From NCBI GenBank assembly GCA_903862465.1, contig CAIOYH010000105.1, positions 1-35,769 of the forward strand: a stretch of 35,769 bases of DNA, read 5' to 3'. The notes beneath the pieces were generated by a model. It was given only the letters and a program-made list of their open reading frames with translations. It did no database searches and was not told the DNA's origin. Source of the DNA: an uncultured bacterium. GTDB lineage: Bacteria; Bacteroidota; Bacteroidia; Bacteroidales; CAIWKO01. Within the stretch, counting starts at the first letter, position 1; each line of letters begins with the position of its first letter. Of this stretch, positions 10,766 to 21,368 are shown in pieces. Both the position numbers and the translations under genes were made by a program.

Positions 10766-12940
10766 TTACATTTTTACAAATTTGACAAAGTTGGTTTGTT
10801 GGGAGGAATGTATTTTGAGGATGTATATTCCTTTTTTTAAGTTGGAGACGTCTAATACTTTTCTGGAGCCGTTGCAAAGGGAGGTTTGTAGGAGGCGACC
10901 GTTGATGTCGAGGATGTCTAGGGTAAGTATTGCGTTGGTTAGGTTGGTGGTGAAGGTTAGTTTGTCGGTGGTGGGGTTGGGATATATTGTGAATTGTGGC
11001 GTTGAGGCTGGGTTGTTTTTTTGTTGTTCATCTATGCCAAGGGCTAAGTCGTGACCATCTTGGGGATGGTGGGAGTTGAAGTAATCGCGTATTTGGGGAA
11101 CTATCTGAAGCATGTTATCAATATTGGAGAAGCCACCGCTTTTGCCAAAACCACTGTCGGCAACTATATAGGCAACATCATAAGAAATATACTGCATTGG
11201 TGCAAGGGTGAATGGACCAGTGATGCCAACGCCTCTTCTGTCGTAAGGCGGGTTTCCAATACTTGCCTCATTCCATTGAGTGGAATCGTTTGGATAACCC
11301 GGAAACATAAATTTTACAGGTCGGGTAGTGTCGCCTCCTGCTAATGGATGCCCCATGCCTCCATAACAAAAATGCTCTCCATCTTTCCAATGATTTGTCA
11401 TTATTAAGTAGTATTCAATGGCTAGATCAGGATCGGTTATGGCTTGTACGCCTCCTCCTGTATTATTAAAATAAGCAAAGGACGTCATAGTTTGGTTTAG
11501 CATAGTTACAGTTTGAACTGGCGGATTAGTGCCATATCCTATTGTTCCTTCATCAATAGAGTCTCCATTATAACAAAAATACGTTTGAAGCAAAGTATCA
11601 CACCCAATATAATCATCAGTTGGATTACCTATATCAATATCTGTAAACATTCCCATATATAATGAATCATAGATGCGGCTCGAGCGATTGTAGATTAGAT
11701 AATTCATAAAGATAGTTTTTTCGAGTAATGGGTCAGTATTATATGCATACGCCATAGCATGGACTTCAACACCTAAACGATTGCCGCCTGTTTCGGTGTG
11801 AGGATAAACAGAGTCGTTAAATATAAAATAAATAGCTTGGTCGCCTCTGATATCAGGGTAGTCACCATTTGCGGGATTATAGGAATTATCTCCATCAACA
11901 TCCACAAAAGGAGCCATCCAATAATTGGCTCCGATGGCGGGATTGGACTCGACGGGCCATTGGCTGATGGAAGTCGGTATGACATAACCCGGAATGTTCC
12001 AATTGGCAATATGGTAATCAATATCTGATTTATTGATTTTCCATACTTTGTTCCAATTTGTCACTTCTGAGGGATATAATGAGGCGTCCATTGCGGGTCC
12101 GGGGTAATAATCTCTGCCATTTCCATGGTATCTTTCGCCGGCTAATCTCAGCACACCATTTTGTTTTACTCCTAACCATAATGCGGAACAAAAGATGGTA
12201 TGTTTTCCACTATCTGCAGGGTATTCAAAACAGTCCTGAGTAGGAGTATCATACGGTTTAAAGAAATTAAGACCCCCCGTTATAATTTTTGCTTTAACTT
12301 GGTTGATGTTTAGAAACGCGCAACTATCTTGTAAGTGACCCTGTATAATTATATTATCAATACTTGATGTTCCTGAAGCATCTACTATACCATTATTAAC
12401 TGAAGAGTCACTAGACATTATCCATCTAATTCTAACTTTCGATTGATTATTACATTCTAAAGGCAGGTAGTAGTTGGTTGTTCCTGTAGGGAAAGTATCC
12501 GTTAAAGTATGTATTTTTCCGCCTGCCAAGTTAGTCCAAACTCCAGAAACGCCTACTTTATATTGTAACTTGAAATGTTTCGGACCAGTGCCGGAAGATT
12601 TCTGACGACTGCTAATACGTATATCTGTATAAAATATTGTCGAAAATGAAATAGAATAGTTTTTTACTGAGTCGAATCCGCCTGCCCATTCAGACGAGGT
12701 GAGACAATAATCACCAATTCCATCTATACCTTGATTATATGTAAATGAAGAGTGATAAGTCGAATCTCTTTGAACGACATCATCAGTATTGTAAGTATTT
12801 CCGAAAGTTTGGGAACTATCGTTATTTACATTAAAATTAAAACTTACCAAGGTAAAATACTGTTGACCGTTGGCTGTTTGAACTAAAAGCATGACGTTAA
12901 GCAACATCATTATGCTTAAAAAAAGTAAGAATCTTTTCAT
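10766..12940 (-). CDS. Secreted protein with type IX sorting domain
   Basis: 724 residues from the ATG at 12940; an in-frame upstream codon adds 18 residues but would bury the signal peptide. The N-terminus MKRFLLFLSIMMLLNVMLLV is a Sec signal ending near NGQQ. The middle has Bacteroidota extracellular features: an Asp-rich turn (VDVDGDNSYNPANGDYPDIR) and a large Tyr/Asn/Gly-rich beta region. The last ~80 residues (FTIYPNPTTDKLTF ... GIYILKI ... FVKFVKM) are a T9SS type A C-terminal sorting domain, which directs passage across the outer membrane and anchoring or release. No catalytic motif was recognised, so the substrate or role is unknown. A near-consensus -7 element lies 40 bases upstream. 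The gene sits between two copies of a dispersed repeat. Confidence 0.88.
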   Translation of the reverse strand: MKRFLLFLSIMMLLNVMLLVQTANGQQYFTLVSFNFNVNNDSSQTFGNTYNTDDVVQRDSTYHSSFTYNQGIDGIGDYCLTSSEWAGGFDSVKNYSISFSTIFYTDIRISSRQKSSGTGPKHFKLQYKVGVSGVWTNLAGGKIHTLTDTFPTGTTNYYLPLECNNQSKVRIRWIMSSDSSVNNGIVDASGTSSIDNIIIQGHLQDSCAFLNINQVKAKIITGGLNFFKPYDTPTQDCFEYPADSGKHTIFCSALWLGVKQNGVLRLAGERYHGNGRDYYPGPAMDASLYPSEVTNWNKVWKINKSDIDYHIANWNIPGYVIPTSISQWPVESNPAIGANYWMAPFVDVDGDNSYNPANGDYPDIRGDQAIYFIFNDSVYPHTETGGNRLGVEVHAMAYAYNTDPLLEKTIFMNYLIYNRSSRIYDSLYMGMFTDIDIGNPTDDYIGCDTLLQTYFCYNGDSIDEGTIGYGTNPPVQTVTMLNQTMTSFAYFNNTGGGVQAITDPDLAIEYYLIMTNHWKDGEHFCYGGMGHPLAGGDTTRPVKFMFPGYPNDSTQWNEASIGNPPYDRRGVGITGPFTLAPMQYISYDVAYIVADSGFGKSGGFSNIDNMLQIVPQIRDYFNSHHPQDGHDLALGIDEQQKNNPASTPQFTIYPNPTTDKLTFTTNLTNAILTLDILDINGRLLQTSLCNGSRKVLDVSNLKKGIYILKIHSSQQTNFVKFVKM

Positions 12941-12980
12941 ACCACTTGTATTTAATAAATGTATTATTGATTTGAGAGTG

Positions 12981-12988
12981 TAAAGGTA
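12981..12988 (-). promoter_or_regulatory. Possible -7 element for the secreted-protein gene
   Basis: Minus strand TACCTTTA differs from TAnnTTTG only in the last base and lies 41 bases before the ATG. No -33 match is evident. Confidence 0.35.
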
Positions 12989-13108
12989 ATACATTTTAGT
13001 GAGATAAGGTGAAAAAAAAAGTTATCGGTAGGTTTAAATCAGTTAACGGTAGGTTTTTGTGTAAAAAGGGGGTTTTGGTTGGATTTTTTTGTTGGGAAAT
13101 CTAGGAAG

Positions 13109-13776: not shown

Positions 13777-14307
13777 TTACATCATCAACTTGCTCCTGCA
13801 GCTTGCACAGAAGCTCGCTGTCTTTTGGTCTATATCTTCCACATAACTACCCGAAATCATCACACAGTCGGGCACGTGGCAATGTATCAAATTATAGTTA
13901 TGACCTAGTTCATGGATGATTTCTTTGCTAAATCGTTCGATTAAAAGATCGTTATCGGCTGCTATGCCGTAGCGTTCGTTGCTCAAGCGAAAGAGGGAGG
14001 CAATGCCACTGCGCCCACCGAGATAGGCTTGCCCAAAAATATAGGTAAATATCGGAATGAATAAATCCACATTAAACAAACCGATGGTTTTGCAGGTGTC
14101 AGCGCTGAAATTCTTTTCCACCTCGAGCAAAATCCTGTTAGCATCATATTGGCGCCGCGCCGCATCATAAAAATCGCTCAAATCAAAATGCCCTTCCCGC
14201 AGGAAAACGTTACAAGTATATTGATGACGCACATTTTCCACTACCTTGGTCAGGAAATTGTTGTCAAAATACCCGAATGAAATTAATGTGATATCTTGCG
14301 GATTCAT
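13777..14307 (-). CDS. amzA: Archaemetzincin-type zinc metalloprotease
   Basis: 176 residues, the usual single-domain length. The zinc site is HELGHNYNLIHC at residues 132-143: His132, His136 and His142 are the metal ligands and Glu133 the base. The family's extra cysteine cluster is present downstream (HCHVPDCVM, then CASC near the C-terminus), so a second structural zinc is expected. In archaemetzincins position 8 of the motif is often Gly; here it is Asn (HExxHxxNxxH). No signal peptide, so it acts in the cytoplasm. Substrates of bacterial archaemetzincins are not established. It lies 57 bases downstream of the sigma-54 activator gene on the same strand, so it might be read through from it. 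Confidence 0.88.
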   Translation of the reverse strand: MNPQDITLISFGYFDNNFLTKVVENVRHQYTCNVFLREGHFDLSDFYDAARRQYDANRILLEVEKNFSADTCKTIGLFNVDLFIPIFTYIFGQAYLGGRSGIASLFRLSNERYGIAADNDLLIERFSKEIIHELGHNYNLIHCHVPDCVMISGSYVEDIDQKTASFCASCRSKLMM

Positions 14308-14364: not shown

Positions 14365-15708
14365 CTAATTGTTAGTAGATTTTAAATTGTATTTCTTTAT
14401 TTTATTGTATAAGGTGACGCGGTCAACCCCAAGTGCTTTTGCGGAACGCGAGATGTTCCAATCATATTTGTGCAAAATTAGCGTGATATGACTCTTTTCT
14501 TGTTCGTCTAAGCTTTCGGCAGCGGTGCTTATGATGTTTTTCTCCAAGGGGAGGTCTTTCAGGGATATCTTTTTTCCATTGCCAATAACAATGGCGCGCT
14601 CAATCATGTTTTCAAGCTCACGAATGTTGCCCGGGAAATCGAATTCTTCTAAACGTTTGACGACAGAATCATCAATAGGAATGGGAGGTTTGTTCATGGA
14701 GGTGCAATATTTCTTGATAAAATATTCGGTGAGCAAGGGTATGTCGCCACTGCGCTCGCGCAAGGGTGGGACATGAATGTTCACTACGTTCAAGCGGTAG
14801 TATAAATCCTCACGGAAGGTGCCTTCGTCCACCATAAGCTTGAGATTGCGATTGGTGGCGCAAATAACACGGAAATCGGAACTTATTTCCTTGTTACCAC
14901 CTACACGCATGAAGGTCTTGCTTTCTAAAACGCGCAACAACTCCACTTGCATCTTGGGCGAAACAGTAGCGATTTCGTCCAAGAAAATGGTGCCGCTGTC
15001 AGCCATCTCAAAACGTCCTTTTCGGTTATACATGGCGCCTGTGAAAGCACCTTTTTCGTGCCCAAATAGTTCGCTTTCCAACAAACTCTCGGTGAGTGCG
15101 CCGCAATGAACACTAATCATAGGGAAATATTTGCGGGATGAATTTGAATGGATGGCTTTGGCAATAAGTTCTTTGCCTGTGCCGCTTTCCCCTGAGATGA
15201 TAACCGAAGAATTCGACTGCGCCACGCTCTGAACTTGATGGAGCACTTGGCGCATGGCATCGCTTTTGCCAATGATATCTTCCACATTTTGAAGGGTAAT
15301 CACTTTTTCCTTGAGTGTTTCATTTTCTTTGGTCAAAGAAATTTGTTTGGAAGCATTGCGAATCAGATGCGACAAATCATCGGGGTCGAACGGCTTGGTG
15401 ATATAATCGAAAGCGCCGTCTTTCAATGCTTGTACGGCGGTATCAACGGTTGCAAATGCGGTCATCACTATCACGATGGAATCGTTCTTCAGGGATTTTA
15501 TGCGTCTGAGCATTTCTAAACCGTCCATGCCGGGCATTTTGATGTCGGCAAGAATAATATCGTAATTTTCTGATTCAAGTTTTGCCAAAGCAGTCTTCGC
15601 GTCTTCAGCGCAATCAACCTTATAGCCATCTTCTATGAACCAACTGAACAAAGAATCTCTAACGGAATCTTCGTCGTCAACAATTAAAATTGAAATTTTC
15701 TTACTCAT
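14365..15708 (-). CDS. NtrC-family sigma-54-dependent response regulator
   Basis: 447 residues in three domains. The receiver (1-120) has acidic residues Asp11/Asp12 and the phospho-acceptor Asp55 (ILADIKMPG). The AAA+ domain has Walker A GESGTGKE (173-180), the sigma-54 contact loop GAFTGA (220-225) and Walker B IFLDEI (241-246). The C-terminus is a Fis-type helix-turn-helix (RSAKALGVDRVTLYNKIKKY). With GAFTGA intact it should drive sigma-54 promoters after phosphorylation. Its ATG overlaps the kinase stop codon (ATGA), so the two are translationally coupled. The likely target is the hybA/hybB operon upstream, which has a sigma-54-like promoter. Closest named type is AtoC/ZraR-like; a specific symbol is not justified. 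Confidence 0.94.
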   Translation of the reverse strand: MSKKISILIVDDEDSVRDSLFSWFIEDGYKVDCAEDAKTALAKLESENYDIILADIKMPGMDGLEMLRRIKSLKNDSIVIVMTAFATVDTAVQALKDGAFDYITKPFDPDDLSHLIRNASKQISLTKENETLKEKVITLQNVEDIIGKSDAMRQVLHQVQSVAQSNSSVIISGESGTGKELIAKAIHSNSSRKYFPMISVHCGALTESLLESELFGHEKGAFTGAMYNRKGRFEMADSGTIFLDEIATVSPKMQVELLRVLESKTFMRVGGNKEISSDFRVICATNRNLKLMVDEGTFREDLYYRLNVVNIHVPPLRERSGDIPLLTEYFIKKYCTSMNKPPIPIDDSVVKRLEEFDFPGNIRELENMIERAIVIGNGKKISLKDLPLEKNIISTAAESLDEQEKSHITLILHKYDWNISRSAKALGVDRVTLYNKIKKYNLKSTNN

Positions 15709-17378
15709 ACTATATCGTCTTTAATCTTTTTTAAAGGTAATGTTATAAGGATGTTGGTGCCTTTCGCAAGCTCGGATTTTACAGCGACTTTGCCGTTGTG
15801 GCTTTGGACAATGCCATGCACAATGGATAAGCCCAAACCTGTGCCTCTTGTATTATATTTAGTTGAAAAGAAAGGCTCGAAAATGTGCGGAATGTCTTCT
15901 TCGGCAATACCATTTCCATTATCAATGATTTCAATGGTGATGTGTTCCTCATCGGGATTGAATGTTTTGAAGATGATTTCGCCATTGTCGGCAACTGCTT
16001 CCGAAGCATTCACCAACACAGCAATGCAGGCTTGTTTGATTTGATTGGGACTGCAATAGACCATATCGTTGTCGGCTGCAAAATCCATAAGGAAAGTGAT
16101 TTTGCTTATCTTAAATGAATGGCTCATCAAATCAGCGGTATCCTGCAACACTTCGTGAATGTGTTTGTCTTCAAAGAAATTCTGATCTTTGCGAGAGAAG
16201 TCTAATAAGCCTTTCACGATATCACCGCAGCGTTTGGTTTCGTTTTCAATCATCTTCAGATGTTTCAAAACAGACTCTTTTTTAGTAGGTTCTAAGTCTT
16301 GAGTGAGGAGTTGTTTTTGAATCAATTTGGTATAAATCAAAATTCCGGAGAGGGGATTGTTGATTTCGTGAGCAACGGAAAGTGACAGTTTGCCGAGAGA
16401 AGCGATTTTTTCGATGTTTATAAGTTCGTTTTGGGCTTCACCTAATTCTTCCGATTTCTTACGGACTTTGTATTCGAGTTGCTGTGACCAATTTTGTAAC
16501 TCATTGTTAGCTGCTTGCAGATTGTCAAGCATATTGTTGAAAGCGATGGAAACCATCCGCATATCGTCCAATTGATTGGGGTTAATCTCCAAGCGCGTGT
16601 TGCGATCTCCTTTTGAAACGGCATAACTCGCATTTATCAAAGCATTCAAAGGATTCTTGATTTTCTTTCTTGTGAAGATGATGAGAAAACCCAAAAGTAA
16701 AAGCGTGGTGAAAGTGGCAAGAAAATAGAAATCGCGTGAGGATTTTTCCACCGTATTGTCAAGATCTTTAAGCGGGATTTTAATGACAAGTGAGCCGAGT
16801 ACTTTTTCGTTCTGTGCATGCGCATGACATGAACTTGTGTAACATGATTTCTCATTCATGATAGGGGAGTTGATGAGAAGATGTCGGTCGCCATTGTCAT
16901 TTTGGTTCATTTCACATTCACTGTTGATGTTGATGATTTTGTAGAAGTTGTCTTTCTCGGGCAACATAGATTTGATACTCGAATGACAATCTAAACAGTT
17001 AGGGTTGCTATGACCACTAGTGCCTGCCGCAAAGGAAGAATAGGCAAGATTTTCTTTGCTGTCGTAAAGATTCACTTCGTCAATACCCGACATTCTGTTG
17101 ATAATATCAAGCGTGTTTTGCAAAGCATCCCTATTGTTTTCGAGCATTGAATGGTGCAAGGCACTACCCACCAACAAAGCGGTGTTGGTACCCCGTTGGC
17201 GGATGATACTTTTCATATAATCTTCGTTCACCGACCTAAAGATTATACCAAATGACACAAATAAAAACACAGAAAGGATAATAATGATATAAACAACCCG
17301 TGCATATATCGAAGACTGTATCCTTAAATACTTTCTAAGCAGTTGACTGCCAAGAATATTTTTGTTTTTTAATGTCAT
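15705..17378 (-). CDS. Membrane histidine kinase with periplasmic c-type heme motifs
   Basis: 557 residues from the ATG at 17378 (an in-frame TTG lies 8 codons upstream). TM1 ~28-49, a periplasmic sensor ~50-215, TM2 ~217-236, HAMP ~237-290, a coiled coil, the phospho-acceptor motif VAHEINNP with His337, then a HATPase domain with NGNGIAEEDIPHIFEPFFST and GTGLGLSIVHG. The sensor holds NCLDCH (residues 128-132 CxxCH) and CYTSSCH (179-185, CX4CH), both attachment motifs for c-type heme. Heme-containing sensors of this layout are known from anaerobes, where they read redox state or small ligands; the ligand here is unknown. It overlaps its cognate regulator gene by four bases, and both follow the electron transfer genes after a 258-base gap. 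Confidence 0.93.
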   Translation of the reverse strand: MTLKNKNILGSQLLRKYLRIQSSIYARVVYIIIILSVFLFVSFGIIFRSVNEDYMKSIIRQRGTNTALLVGSALHHSMLENNRDALQNTLDIINRMSGIDEVNLYDSKENLAYSSFAAGTSGHSNPNCLDCHSSIKSMLPEKDNFYKIININSECEMNQNDNGDRHLLINSPIMNEKSCYTSSCHAHAQNEKVLGSLVIKIPLKDLDNTVEKSSRDFYFLATFTTLLLLGFLIIFTRKKIKNPLNALINASYAVSKGDRNTRLEINPNQLDDMRMVSIAFNNMLDNLQAANNELQNWSQQLEYKVRKKSEELGEAQNELINIEKIASLGKLSLSVAHEINNPLSGILIYTKLIQKQLLTQDLEPTKKESVLKHLKMIENETKRCGDIVKGLLDFSRKDQNFFEDKHIHEVLQDTADLMSHSFKISKITFLMDFAADNDMVYCSPNQIKQACIAVLVNASEAVADNGEIIFKTFNPDEEHITIEIIDNGNGIAEEDIPHIFEPFFSTKYNTRGTGLGLSIVHGIVQSHNGKVAVKSELAKGTNILITLPLKKIKDDIV

Positions 17379-17429
17379 TATTTTTACGTCATAAATAGAC
17401 AACGAAGTTACACAATAATTTTAGTATAT

Positions 17430-17635: not shown

Positions 17636-18355
17636 TTAGTCATTGAATTTGAGAAAACTTTCTTGAAAATCCATCCAAACGCCATTGGGTAGTTCAGAAA
17701 GGGGGTGGTCCATCAATTCGCCACCATCTTGCAGGATTGCTAAGGTGGCTTCCGGAGAATTTTTCTTATTAGAAATGGCAAGAAAATCTTTAAATCGAAG
17801 CATTTCAGTTTTTGACCAATTCGTGGCTTGTTCGGCAAGAAACAGATGTTGAGTTTCCTCTAACCACTTGTCAGGTTTTATTTTAAATACCCAACCTTTT
17901 CCATACGGATCGGAATTCAAAAGCTGAGGAGTTTCAATAATGTGTGAGTTGGTGCTCAGAATTGTTCCTGTAATTGGCGAAAATATTTTCAATTGCTTGT
18001 CGCCTCTGATAACTTCTGCAACGATATTTCCTTTGTGGATGGTTTCGTCTGAATTCTTAAGATAGTTTATGGTGACTTCACCTGTTGTGTGCAACAGAAA
18101 ATCGTCCAATCCCATCGAAACTGTACCTGATTTTTCCATAAATACCCATGTGTGGTTTTTGCTATGGAAAATACCTTGAGGTATCTTTAGAACATCAAAA
18201 GTTAGAATCCTCAAGGCTTTCTTGATTTTCTGTTTAATGCCTCCTTGTTTGTTCAACATGATCCAAAAAGGAATCAATACGAGGAAAAATGCGATGATTG
18301 CAATATATTCAAAACCTTTGGTGTCAAATATATTTTGATAATTAAAATTGTCCAT
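17636..18355 (-). CDS. Membrane-anchored GcvH-like (lipoyl-fold) protein 2
   Basis: 239 residues from the ATG at 18355; a GTG nine codons upstream is the other option. Residues 16-34 form a membrane anchor. Residues 61-164 align without gaps to glycine cleavage H protein: NHTWVFMEKSG, DDFLLHTTGEV, SPITG (126-130), LLNSDPYGKGWVFKIKPDKW. At the place of the lipoylated lysine there is Asp119, with a lysine one step later (Lys120, GDKQLKI). A C-terminal region of ~70 residues not found in GcvH carries RFKDFLA (187-193) and LQDGGEL (208-214), both shared with the paralogue at 20553-21317. It is not a normal glycine cleavage component, and no gcvP/T genes are near. It lies 47 bases after hybB. Fold confident, function unknown. 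Confidence 0.8.
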   Translation of the reverse strand: MDNFNYQNIFDTKGFEYIAIIAFFLVLIPFWIMLNKQGGIKQKIKKALRILTFDVLKIPQGIFHSKNHTWVFMEKSGTVSMGLDDFLLHTTGEVTINYLKNSDETIHKGNIVAEVIRGDKQLKIFSPITGTILSTNSHIIETPQLLNSDPYGKGWVFKIKPDKWLEETQHLFLAEQATNWSKTEMLRFKDFLAISNKKNSPEATLAILQDGGELMDHPLSELPNGVWMDFQESFLKFND

Positions 18356-18402
18356 ATTTATTTGTTTTGTGCTCCCCAACACCGTGTCGAGAAACTGATT
18401 AA

Positions 18403-19674
18403 TTATTTATTTTCTTTAGCCCATGACGGCGGTTCACTAAGGACCGGCATGCGTTTTATAATCCATCTGAATATCCAAATCTCCGTAAATATTACGGTCA
18501 ACGTTACAGCAAGCTCCATCCAAGTGGGGAAATATCGGATTGCTGCATCCCATCGGAAACCAATGACTGTAACGTTCAGTCTGTTTAAAATGATACCAAG
18601 CATCGTGATGATAGCCGCCACTTTAGCAAGGTTAATATTACTCTTTTTATAACTATAAACATAAAGTATCATCGGAAGTAGAACGAATCCAAGCATTTCC
18701 AATAAATACCAATAACCCATGGGAGTATCTAACAAATCCCAACGTTTTTGATGGATGAAGACCAAGAGTTGGAGAAAGAAATAGGCAAACATCGCACCTG
18801 CACATATTTTTGCCAAACCCAATACGATGCCTTTTTGACTTGTTTGATTCTTTTCGCTGATTTGCTTGAAAAATACTTTATGGCTGATAGCACCTTCAAA
18901 AATAACCATAGACAAACCTGCAAAAACACTAGAGACTAAGAATAGCACAGGTATAAATTCGGAATACCACAATGGATGGATTTTGTCTTTAGCCATCAGA
19001 TATAAGGCACCCAATCCGGATTGATGCAAGGTGGATAATGTAATCCCAAAAATCACAGCTGCTATTGTCATGCCGGATAGAATTTTTCTAGCGCGTTTGG
19101 CTCCAAGCCATTCGGCAATAGCAGGCGAAAACTCTATTAATTCAGCTATCATGTAAAGTAGGAAATGCCACGCCACTAGGAACAAGACAGAACTAGTTCC
19201 GAAACTGTTACCGATAATTGGATTGACGACATTCCACGGTCTGCCTAAATCTAGCAGTAAAGCCCCCGCATAAAAAACATAAGCAAGAAAACCGTTCAGC
19301 ACTGTGACGCGAACAATGGAATGATACTTTTCTCTATTAAGGATATACACCAAGAAAGTTATTACATAAGCACCTCCTGCAAAGGCAACTCCCGTAACAA
19401 CGTCAAAGCCTATCCACAAACCCCAAGGAACTTCTTGTGATAAGTTGGTTACAGAGCCGATGCCATAAATAAATCGAATGACTATCAAAACTATGCCTGT
19501 TAGTATAATAGGTATAGAAATGATGTTAAAGGGCGTGAATATTTTTCCTTTAGGTTTAAGTTCACTCAGAATAAATCTAAAAATAGATTGCTTGCTACTA
19601 TCTCTTGAAAGCGGTAAAGCTGTGTTATTCGGTTTCATTGTTTTCATGAGTTTGATTTTTTTTAGTGGCTTCAT
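18403..19674 (-). CDS. HybB/NrfD-type polytopic membrane subunit
   Basis: 423 residues, about ten membrane segments. Resembles E. coli HybB: IYGIGSVTNLSQEVPWGLWI, then FAGGAYVITFLVYILNREKY, LLDLGRPWN, STLHQSGLGALYL, PLWYSEFIPV, and FPTWMEL near the end. NrfD-superfamily proteins pass electrons between a periplasmic ferredoxin and the quinone pool, some with proton movement. The ATG at 19674 has an AGGA a few bases upstream and overlaps hybA by 50 bases; ATGs at 19647 and 19638 are alternatives. With the HybA-like protein it forms the membrane half of a hydrogenase-2 or PsrBC-like complex, but no large or small hydrogenase subunit is in the window. I use HybB as a resemblance, not a proven orthologue. 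Confidence 0.88.
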   Translation of the reverse strand: MKPLKKIKLMKTMKPNNTALPLSRDSSKQSIFRFILSELKPKGKIFTPFNIISIPIILTGIVLIVIRFIYGIGSVTNLSQEVPWGLWIGFDVVTGVAFAGGAYVITFLVYILNREKYHSIVRVTVLNGFLAYVFYAGALLLDLGRPWNVVNPIIGNSFGTSSVLFLVAWHFLLYMIAELIEFSPAIAEWLGAKRARKILSGMTIAAVIFGITLSTLHQSGLGALYLMAKDKIHPLWYSEFIPVLFLVSSVFAGLSMVIFEGAISHKVFFKQISEKNQTSQKGIVLGLAKICAGAMFAYFFLQLLVFIHQKRWDLLDTPMGYWYLLEMLGFVLLPMILYVYSYKKSNINLAKVAAIITMLGIILNRLNVTVIGFRWDAAIRYFPTWMELAVTLTVIFTEIWIFRWIIKRMPVLSEPPSWAKENK

Positions 19675-20491
19675 AAATTCCTAAAAGAATCGGTGGCAAC
19701 AAAACGAATATTGTTGGCACACTATACAAAAAACCTTTTGACAAAGCGGGATACGACTCGTTTTGAATTTTTGTGTTCAATCCCAACTCACTGAATGGAA
19801 CGGGGGAGATGTAAAGAAAACCTGTACCACCTGCTGTATGATCCCCATAAACTTCATCCACGTATGTATCGGGGTTTTCAACTATTCTTTTACGAGCCTC
19901 TGCCAACATTTCCCTACGACTTCCGAATTTAATAGCTTCAGCAGGACAATTTTCTGCACACACCGGAATGCCTCCCTTTGCCATTTTCTCATAACACATA
20001 GTGCATTTCTGAATCTTGGGGTTGGCGCTATGGTACTCAAATTTTGGAGCATCGAAAGGGCAAGAAACCATACAATAACGACACCCCATACATTTGTTTC
20101 CACTCCAAATAACAGGTCCTTGTTTCGTTTTATACATCGCCTGAGTCAAGCATGCAGATGCACAAGCAGGCTCATTGCAATGCATACACTGTGTTTTTAT
20201 AAAAACCTCTCCCTTTGAAGTTTTATAACAATTTACAACGGTTCGATGTTGATCATCCGTTTTTCTAACCACTCCTGCCTTTAATTCTCCTACAGGAGGG
20301 GGCAGTCCATGAGCTTCAGCACAAAGCGTTTCGCAAGTCTGACAACCCACACAACGTGTGGAATCATACAACATGCCACGAAATTCTCTATCGCTATCCT
20401 TTGATTTTCCGGCTTTAAGTATGTCAGGAGTGCATAAAGTTAGTCCGGCAATCCCTATCGTTTTTAAAAAGTCTCTTCTATCTAAACTCAT
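19625..20491 (-). CDS. HybA-like exported ferredoxin, four [4Fe-4S] clusters
   Basis: 288 residues. A Tat signal opens the protein (RRDFLK at 5-10, then a hydrophobic stretch). Sixteen cysteines lie in four sets: C47/50/53/57, C102/105/110/114, C134/137/140/144 and C163/166/178/182, the pattern of DMSO-reductase-type and HybA iron-sulfur subunits. A C-terminal membrane anchor (GFLYSVPTIFVLLPPILLGI, ~253-272) is the HybA trait. It should sit on the periplasmic face and pass electrons to or from the HybB-like protein, whose gene overlaps its 3' end. It follows the first GcvH-like gene by 61 bases. No catalytic molybdo- or nickel-subunit is present, so its electron donor is unknown. Confidence 0.92.
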   Translation of the reverse strand: MSLDRRDFLKTIGIAGLTLCTPDILKAGKSKDSDREFRGMLYDSTRCVGCQTCETLCAEAHGLPPPVGELKAGVVRKTDDQHRTVVNCYKTSKGEVFIKTQCMHCNEPACASACLTQAMYKTKQGPVIWSGNKCMGCRYCMVSCPFDAPKFEYHSANPKIQKCTMCYEKMAKGGIPVCAENCPAEAIKFGSRREMLAEARKRIVENPDTYVDEVYGDHTAGGTGFLYISPVPFSELGLNTKIQNESYPALSKGFLYSVPTIFVLLPPILLGIYEATKKNQTHENNETE

Positions 20492-20552
20492 AATATTAAA
20501 TATTAAGTAGTGTAAAAACTGAGTCTGTCTATGTGATATAGGCTAATTATTG

Positions 20553-21317
20553 CTATATAGCTCCATATATATCTTCGCTAGGATGAATACTCTCTTTCTT
20601 CACTAGTTTTCTATCTATTTTATAGTGACAATTAGAGTTGTTGATATATTTTGTTTGAAATTCTTCCCATACTTCAGGTCCGAAGTCTTCCAAAATATTA
20701 TCCTTAAGCTCGCCACCGTCTTGGAGTATTATGGGCGTCAATTCGGGGTTTCCAACAAATCTATTATTGGCAAGAAAGTCTTTGAAACGAGAGAATTCCT
20801 TCTTCAACCAAGCAGTATAGGGTTCTGCCATAATCAAGAATTGTAATTCTCGCGTCCAATTCGTAGGTTCGATGGTATAAATCCACCCATCTTGAAAGGG
20901 AGAGCTATTTATTGCGGAAGAATCCACAAGCAGCTCAATGTTTCTTGATTTAATTTTACCCGAGATTGGGGAGGAAATGTTCAATTGCTTGCCATTTTGC
21001 ATGATGGTTAGCGCCGGTTCTCCTTTTCTGACTTTTTCTCCGGGATTTTTCAAATTCACGCGATTTAGCGGTCCCGTGATGTGAAGCAGAAAATCATCTA
21101 TGCCGATTTTTACAACACCTGACTTTTCCATAAAAGCCCAAGTATGGGTTTTGTCAAAATAGATGCCTTTGGGAATTAACACGGAAGTTTCATTAAAAAC
21201 CCGTGTTGGAATTGTTGAAATTGTAGAAGTTTTAGATGCTGCTTTTCTACTGAATTTGACGATTGCATCCACTGTAAAAACTATTACAACAAATGCTAAT
21301 AAGATTAAGAATACCAT
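20553..21317 (-). CDS. Membrane-anchored GcvH-like (lipoyl-fold) protein 1
   Basis: 254 residues and first gene of the operon. Residues 2-19 are a membrane anchor, probably with the rest facing one side of the membrane. Residues ~51-154 are GcvH-like (THTWAFMEKSG, DDFLLHITG, SPISG at 116-120, DGWIYTIEPTNW). The lipoyl lysine position is Gly109 and the lysine is displaced to 110 (NGKQLNI), exactly as in the paralogue. The C-terminal extension shares RFKDFLA (177-183) and LQDGGEL (198-204) with the paralogue, then has a private ~30-residue tail. The two copies enclose hybA and hybB, which suggests a structural or carrier role for the electron transfer complex. A sigma-54-like promoter lies directly upstream. 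Confidence 0.8.
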   Translation of the reverse strand: MVFLILLAFVVIVFTVDAIVKFSRKAASKTSTISTIPTRVFNETSVLIPKGIYFDKTHTWAFMEKSGVVKIGIDDFLLHITGPLNRVNLKNPGEKVRKGEPALTIMQNGKQLNISSPISGKIKSRNIELLVDSSAINSSPFQDGWIYTIEPTNWTRELQFLIMAEPYTAWLKKEFSRFKDFLANNRFVGNPELTPIILQDGGELKDNILEDFGPEVWEEFQTKYINNSNCHYKIDRKLVKKESIHPSEDIYGAI

Positions 21318-21353
21318 GATTTCTGTTTTTTTAATTGTTCATTATGGTGCTTC

Positions 21354-21368
21354 TCAACTATAATGCCA
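21354..21368 (-). promoter_or_regulatory. Sigma-54-like promoter for the hyb-like operon
   Basis: Minus strand TGGCA, six bases, then TTGA. The sigma-54 consensus is TGGCAC-N5-TTGC, so the -24 block and spacing match and the -12 block differs in the last base. Transcription would start near 21342, about 25 bases before the first gene. The adjacent GAFTGA-bearing regulator makes a sigma-54 promoter expected. Confidence 0.5.

Follow-up and report, generated by a model that had tools for sequence, protein, structure and literature searches.

GcvH-like proteins lacking the lipoyl lysine in a conserved redox and two-component operon of Bacteroidota

The GcvH fold is a cofactor-carrier fold which is also known outside its classical setting: LbpA is a precedent for GcvH-like proteins in new lipoate-dependent redox roles with ligases of their own (PMC6067878). 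In another lipoyl domain, a protein different from those described here, moving the lipoyl lysine by one residue abolished lipoylation (PMC6270654). In addition, CarG shows that a relative of archaemetzincins can take part in the control of transcription (PMC3427221). This paper deals with a pair of GcvH-like proteins, G1 and G2, and the operon encoding them in an uncultured bacterium of the Bacteroidales (GTDB lineage CAIWKO01). The DNA analysed, hereafter the window, is the 35,769-nucleotide stretch at positions 1 to 35,769 of contig CAIOYH010000105.1 (assembly GCA_903862465.1, forward strand). The larger finding is a conserved regulatory and redox operon around the pair, made up of seven gene families in the order G1, HybA, HybB, G2, heme histidine kinase, sigma54 regulator and archaemetzincin. 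Neither G1 nor G2 has a lysine at the canonical lipoyl position, and on balance both are probably lipoate-free adaptors in a redox-sensing, autoregulated two-component module. This reading draws on the predicted fold, the absent lipoyl lysine, the gene order, a promoter element, the loss of genes as a block and the fusion of the GcvH-like domain to receivers.

G1 and G2 match the Pfam GCV_H family at 73.5 and 81.4 bits, respectively (cut-off, 22.2), and remain below the equivalog cut-off of TIGR00527 (115.85 bits) with 53.0 and 70.2 bits. Their AlphaFold models have a mean predicted local distance difference test (pLDDT) score of about 82, mostly above 90 within the GcvH-like domain, and compare with the H-protein 1htp at Z 20.3 across 131 residues for G1 and Z 18.1 for G2; as modelled, the GcvH fold is present in both. 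A tree built on few columns splits canonical GcvH from the G1/G2 family at a Shimodaira-Hasegawa-like approximate likelihood ratio test (SH-aLRT) value of 99. The membrane anchor which a sequence-only reading had assigned to both proteins is found again as a single hydrophobic helix at each N-terminus. The invariant residues of the G2 homologues begin at Met10, so the true start of G2 is probably at position 18355; counted from Met10, the residue called Asp128 below is Asp119, and Lys129 is likewise numbered on the long form. In one related locus (L075, 1126-2792) two short G1 copies lie side by side in tandem.

The sequence-only reading had also placed Gly109 of G1 and Asp119 of G2 opposite the lipoyl lysine, with a lysine displaced by one residue in both paralogues, and ungapped profile alignments and the predicted hairpins agree with it. 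The lipoyl lysine of solved H-proteins aligns with Gly109 in G1 and Asp128 in G2; the stretch from HxW through P-V-S-G is ungapped, save in one target for a single position well ahead of the tip, and no one-residue gap near the tip restores the canonical lysine in these alignments. The G1 hairpin is modelled as strand 101-107, turn N108-G109 and strand 110-116, and that of G2 as strand 120-126, turn G127-D128 and strand 129-134; therefore, the lysine would open the return strand as its first residue in both proteins and would not be a residue of the turn. Of the 84 distinct G1 homologues, 83 have Gly at the canonical position, and every one of the 84 has Lys directly after it. The 67 G2 homologues have G (56), D (6), N (2), E (2) or S (1) at the canonical position, never Lys, followed by K (58), R (4), G (3), A (1) or N (1). 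Canonical GcvH, by comparison, has the lipoyl lysine in 23 of 23 Bacteroidota loci, including the copy of this genome, with Thr after it and Glu three residues before it (23/23). Because the pattern holds across the homologues of both proteins against canonical GcvH, the displaced lysine is, judged by these alignments, neither chance nor a sequencing slip.

In 55 more distant members the canonical position is occupied by G, N, D and others, with Lys in only two, and the next position by K (17), R (17), N (7), G (7) and others. The attachment lysine is thus, as far as the aligned sequences tell, missing from the family as a whole, and a basic residue often follows its place but is dispensable outside G1. 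Of the two outcomes which the sequence-only reading had left open, a lysine still serving after a hairpin shift fares badly, since the next-position lysine is replaced in part of G2 (R, G, A, N; 9 of 67) and in most distant relatives, and conventional lipoylation of G1 and G2 is therefore unlikely. The other outcome, a fold repurposed without lipoate, is favoured by the absence of lysine at the canonical position across the family and by the lack of a conserved ligase near the operon: no dedicated lipoate ligase is among the gene families conserved around it, one LplA/LipB-family enzyme (PF21948) is encoded elsewhere in the genome, and the only PF03099 match in the genome looks like a putative biotin ligase. 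We infer that G1 and G2 lack lipoate in the cell.

Both proteins also share a C-terminal region of about 70 residues in which E, W, R-x-K-D-F and Q-D-G-G are conserved. The motifs RFKDFLA and LQDGGEL, by which the sequence-only reading had recognized a new shared addition, fall inside this region, and its G-G is invariant in both families. A Pfam search with the region gave weak helical matches and no real one, a sequence search of the PDB gave nothing convincing, and the matches of its profile across 14 genomes were confined to the GcvH-like proteins of this system; by these searches it is a genuine shared domain without a known family, called here the QDGG domain. The majority of G1 homologues are longer (about 575 residues) and carry a PstS/PBP_like_2-type domain, apparently exported, ahead of the membrane helix. 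Since the short G1 proteins, the one in the window included, nest, with weak support, among the long ones on a tree of few columns, the window lineage has probably lost the PstS-like domain.

A scan of public genomes gave 80 G1 loci, and all those with a named phylum belong to the Bacteroidota. Clear members occur in about 50 of 395 genomes of a phylum sample and in only 2 of 295 of a class sample, so the system is patchy, and the gene order of the operon was found again in about 10 of 20 distant loci examined. A plasmid search for members outside the Bacteroidota yielded nothing beyond GcvH-like matches, mostly annotated as gcvH, with about 26-32% identity across roughly half of the query. 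Where G1, kinase and regulator are present together, 56 loci have all of HybA, HybB and G2, and 8 have none of them. The archaemetzincin stays in 8/8 of the latter, HybB is missing genome-wide in the cassette-less genomes G042 and G008, and one of the eight loci (L104) retains a 77-residue HybA remnant, which points to loss of the cassette and not to a primitive state. By this all-or-none pattern, G1, kinase, regulator and protease form a core and HybA, HybB and G2 a cassette that can be detached; gene content of this kind points to HybAB as the partner of G2 and to the kinase as that of G1. Furthermore, in four loci (L158, L159, L166 and L171) the genes after HybA-HybB encode a 13-heme cytochrome, a kinase and a pair of receiver-GcvH-like fusion proteins, and these fusions are the most direct evidence for a GcvH-like domain in phosphotransfer signalling. 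Very divergent proteins occupy the G2 position in three loci (L158, 4558-5283, minus strand; L168, 11084-11833, plus strand; L170, 11008-11766, plus strand), each with cysteines clustered at the N-terminus (C-x-W...LC...C-x2-C), then a GcvH-like stretch with a lysine-free tip and finally a DGG C-terminus; a Pfam scan of two of the three gave no match. No published description of the cluster was found in the literature searched, which took in few subscription papers.

Upstream of the first gene, 64 of 71 loci have an element like TGGCAY-N5-TTGCW, usually ending TTGAA, with at most two mismatches, whereas about 2.9 are expected by shuffling; among 18 distant loci, 9 have it with at most one mismatch, compared with 0.2 by shuffling. 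The sigma54-type enrichment is limited to the sequence immediately preceding the first gene, and a scan of whole loci with the generic sigma54 consensus gave 15 matches against 15.4 by shuffling. Genome-wide, the pattern has 43 matches and its reversed form 16, and the strands are strongly unequal. As a sigma54 regulator is encoded inside an operon preceded by a sigma54-type site, autoregulation is the natural reading.

Among the other genes (Table 1), HybA keeps 16/16 cluster cysteines in 73/73 homologues. By comparison with the quinone-site and proton-path residues of E. coli HybB (PMC8076601), and in E. coli numbering, HybB retains three of the six residues of the quinone site (D58, D109 and S129) and the majority of those in the proton path (R89, Y99, E148 and H184). 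The two c-heme-type motifs of the kinase are present in 76 of 76 homologues, and heme is presumably attached to them. In loci L036, L064 and L087, G2 is followed by two consecutive histidine kinase genes and not by one. The archaemetzincin is found in 57 of 80 G1 loci, several of which are incomplete; that of the window scores 148.6 bits against NF033823 (cut-off, 145) with its motif HExxHxxGxxHC altered from G to N (HELGHNYNLIHC). Most relatives keep the G, and the same change is seen in only one (HELGHNFNLIHC) among the 57. Adjoining the operon, outside the conserved cluster, a 742-residue protein with a C-terminal sorting domain of Por (type IX) secretion is encoded at 10766-12994 of the window. 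A reading of the locus as a defence system was dropped, as PADLOC gave no match.

Table 1. Features of the operon and of related loci (positions in the window unless a locus is named)
Feature	Position	Strand	Remarks
Sigma54-type promoter-like site, TGGCATTATAGTTGAG	21353..21368	-	about 50 bp before the G1 start
G1	20553..21317	-	254 residues; membrane helix, residues 2-27; GcvH-like domain, about 46-174; QDGG domain, about 158-230
G1 hairpin tip codons	20988..20993	-	Gly109, canonical lipoyl-lysine position, then invariant Lys110
HybA/HmcB-like ferredoxin	19625..20491	-	Tat signal, C-terminal anchor, four [4Fe-4S] cysteine sets
HybB/HmcC/NrfD-like quinone-interacting membrane subunit	18403..19674	-	NrfD family match
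G2	17636..18382	-	248 residues; conserved N-terminal membrane segment, GcvH-like domain, C-terminal QDGG domain
G2 hairpin tip codons	17996..18001	-	Asp128, canonical lipoyl-lysine position, then Lys129, not invariant in homologues
Sensor histidine kinase	15705..17402	-	HAMP; CLDCH and CYTSSCH c-heme-type motifs between two membrane helices
NtrC-family sigma54-dependent response regulator	14365..15708	-	receiver, sigma54 interaction and Fis helix-turn-helix domains
Archaemetzincin (Peptidase_M54)	13777..14307	-	seventh conserved gene of the cluster
Receiver-GcvH-like fusions	L158:14038-16045, L159:6786-8820, L166:8246-10302, L171:7129-9151		two per locus, about 270 and 390 residues

In the mechanism proposed, the N-terminal helix would hold G1 and G2 on the cytoplasmic face of the inner membrane, where they would act as adaptor or transmission subunits of a redox-sensing two-component module. 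HybA-HybB would exchange electrons between the quinone pool and the periplasm with G2 as their cytoplasmic partner, while G1, which in most relatives bears a PstS-like periplasmic domain across the membrane, would work with the heme histidine kinase. The kinase would then act on the sigma54 regulator, by which the operon itself would be switched on, and the archaemetzincin may be an accessory or an output. A wider proposal, put forward as possible but somewhat short of probable, is that the GcvH-derived lipoate-free domain and its C-terminal partner domain form a previously undescribed signal-transmission module, which would link the quinone-linked HybAB and the PstS-like sensor to the heme kinase and is also fused to receivers.

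Several points weigh against the adaptor reading. The membrane topology is read solely from hydrophobicity and flanking charges, conserved gene order may reflect shared function without contact, and Lys110 is strictly invariant in G1, which is not required of a plain scaffold. In HybB, the quinone-site residues S105, E133 and S190 of E. coli are replaced by A, L and A. The promoter shuffles preserved base composition and not dinucleotides, and the consensus was altered (C to Y at one place) after two sites had been inspected. Moreover, rpoN was not found in this assembly (G000, 96% complete); however, it is present in 19 of 20 genomes examined, including three of the same genus as the window genome, so an assembly gap is likely.

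The main rival is that the cluster is chiefly an energy-conserving respiratory complex, namely a quinone:cytochrome oxidoreductase like Hmc or Hyb, in which the GcvH-like proteins are structural subunits and the two-component genes merely control expression. It would account for the conserved HybA clusters and HybB proton-path residues, the 13-heme cytochrome added in some relatives and the conserved membrane segment at the N-terminus of G2, but no catalytic subunit, cytoplasmic or periplasmic, is among the genes conserved in the cluster, the core genes are kept in the 8 loci without the cassette, and the receiver fusions tie the fold to signalling. This rival is considered unlikely, although it deserves to be taken seriously. 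More doubtful still is a reading in which an atypical or less stringent ligase continues to attach lipoate to Lys110 of G1, though perhaps not to G2, and G1 carries electrons or thiols away from a HybAB-type complex much as LbpA serves the Hdr-like complex. The invariance of Lys110 (84/84), its place on the same hairpin one residue off the canonical position, the LplA/LipB-family enzyme of the genome and the LbpA precedent (PMC6067878) all speak for it; nevertheless, the shifted lysines were unmodified in the lipoyl domain examined (PMC6270654), R, N, H and G occur at that position in the distal family, the Glu three residues before the canonical lysine is not retained, the cluster is without a conserved ligase gene, and Lys110 persists in G1 of loci lacking HybAB. 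That the two proteins are decaying GcvH copies with membrane attachment as their one remaining function is scarcely credible: the attachment site is indeed gone, but each family has 22 invariant columns and a mean column identity of 54-62% across dozens of species, operon and promoter are conserved, and canonical GcvH is encoded elsewhere in the same genome (contig C187).

Proteins of the G1 and G2 type are prone to annotation as "glycine cleavage system protein H", and because they match GcvH profiles, lipoate metabolism may be wrongly read into such genomes. If the adaptor reading is true, the pair would be a clear example of a cofactor-carrier fold converted to a cofactor-free signalling part, and a widespread redox-sensing system would be defined in mostly uncultivated Bacteroidota, in which the quinone redox state may control a sigma54 promoter through GcvH-like proteins.

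Compared with known systems, G1 and G2 resemble GcvH (PF01597, TIGR00527) in the fold of a domain of about 128 residues (Z 18-20), in the position of the hairpin and in the P-V-S-G and W landmarks, whereas they differ in having no lysine at the lipoyl position, an extra membrane helix and the QDGG domain, no conserved glycine-cleavage genes nearby and scores under the GcvH equivalog cut-off. NCBI models likewise distinguish other GcvH-like proteins from GcvH (TIGR03077 "not_gcvH" and NF045810, GcvH-related protein (desulf)), to which the profile similarity of G1 and G2 is weak (28-52 bits against cut-offs of 144-150). LbpA of Hdr-like sulfur oxidation (PMC6067878) is another GcvH relative put to use in a redox complex other than glycine cleavage, but it has the lipoyl lysine, mostly two cysteines, hdr genes and a ligase dedicated to it, whereas the G1/G2 cluster has none of these; G2 has no cysteine and G1 only one, in its tail. 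With HybA-HybB of [NiFe] hydrogenase 2 and HmcB-HmcC the window pair has in common the 16-cysteine ferredoxin, Tat signal, C-terminal anchor and NrfD-like quinone subunit, although the profile similarity, while strong, stays under the equivalog cut-offs (408 of 550 and 300 of 420 bits), and in place of conserved hydrogenase, HmcA, HmcE and HmcF genes the cluster has GcvH-like partners. Finally, the archaemetzincin shares the M54 family with CarG of Myxococcus and, unlike CarG, the window protein, which is above the NCBIfam cut-off, still has the glutamate of HExxH and is encoded within a two-component operon.

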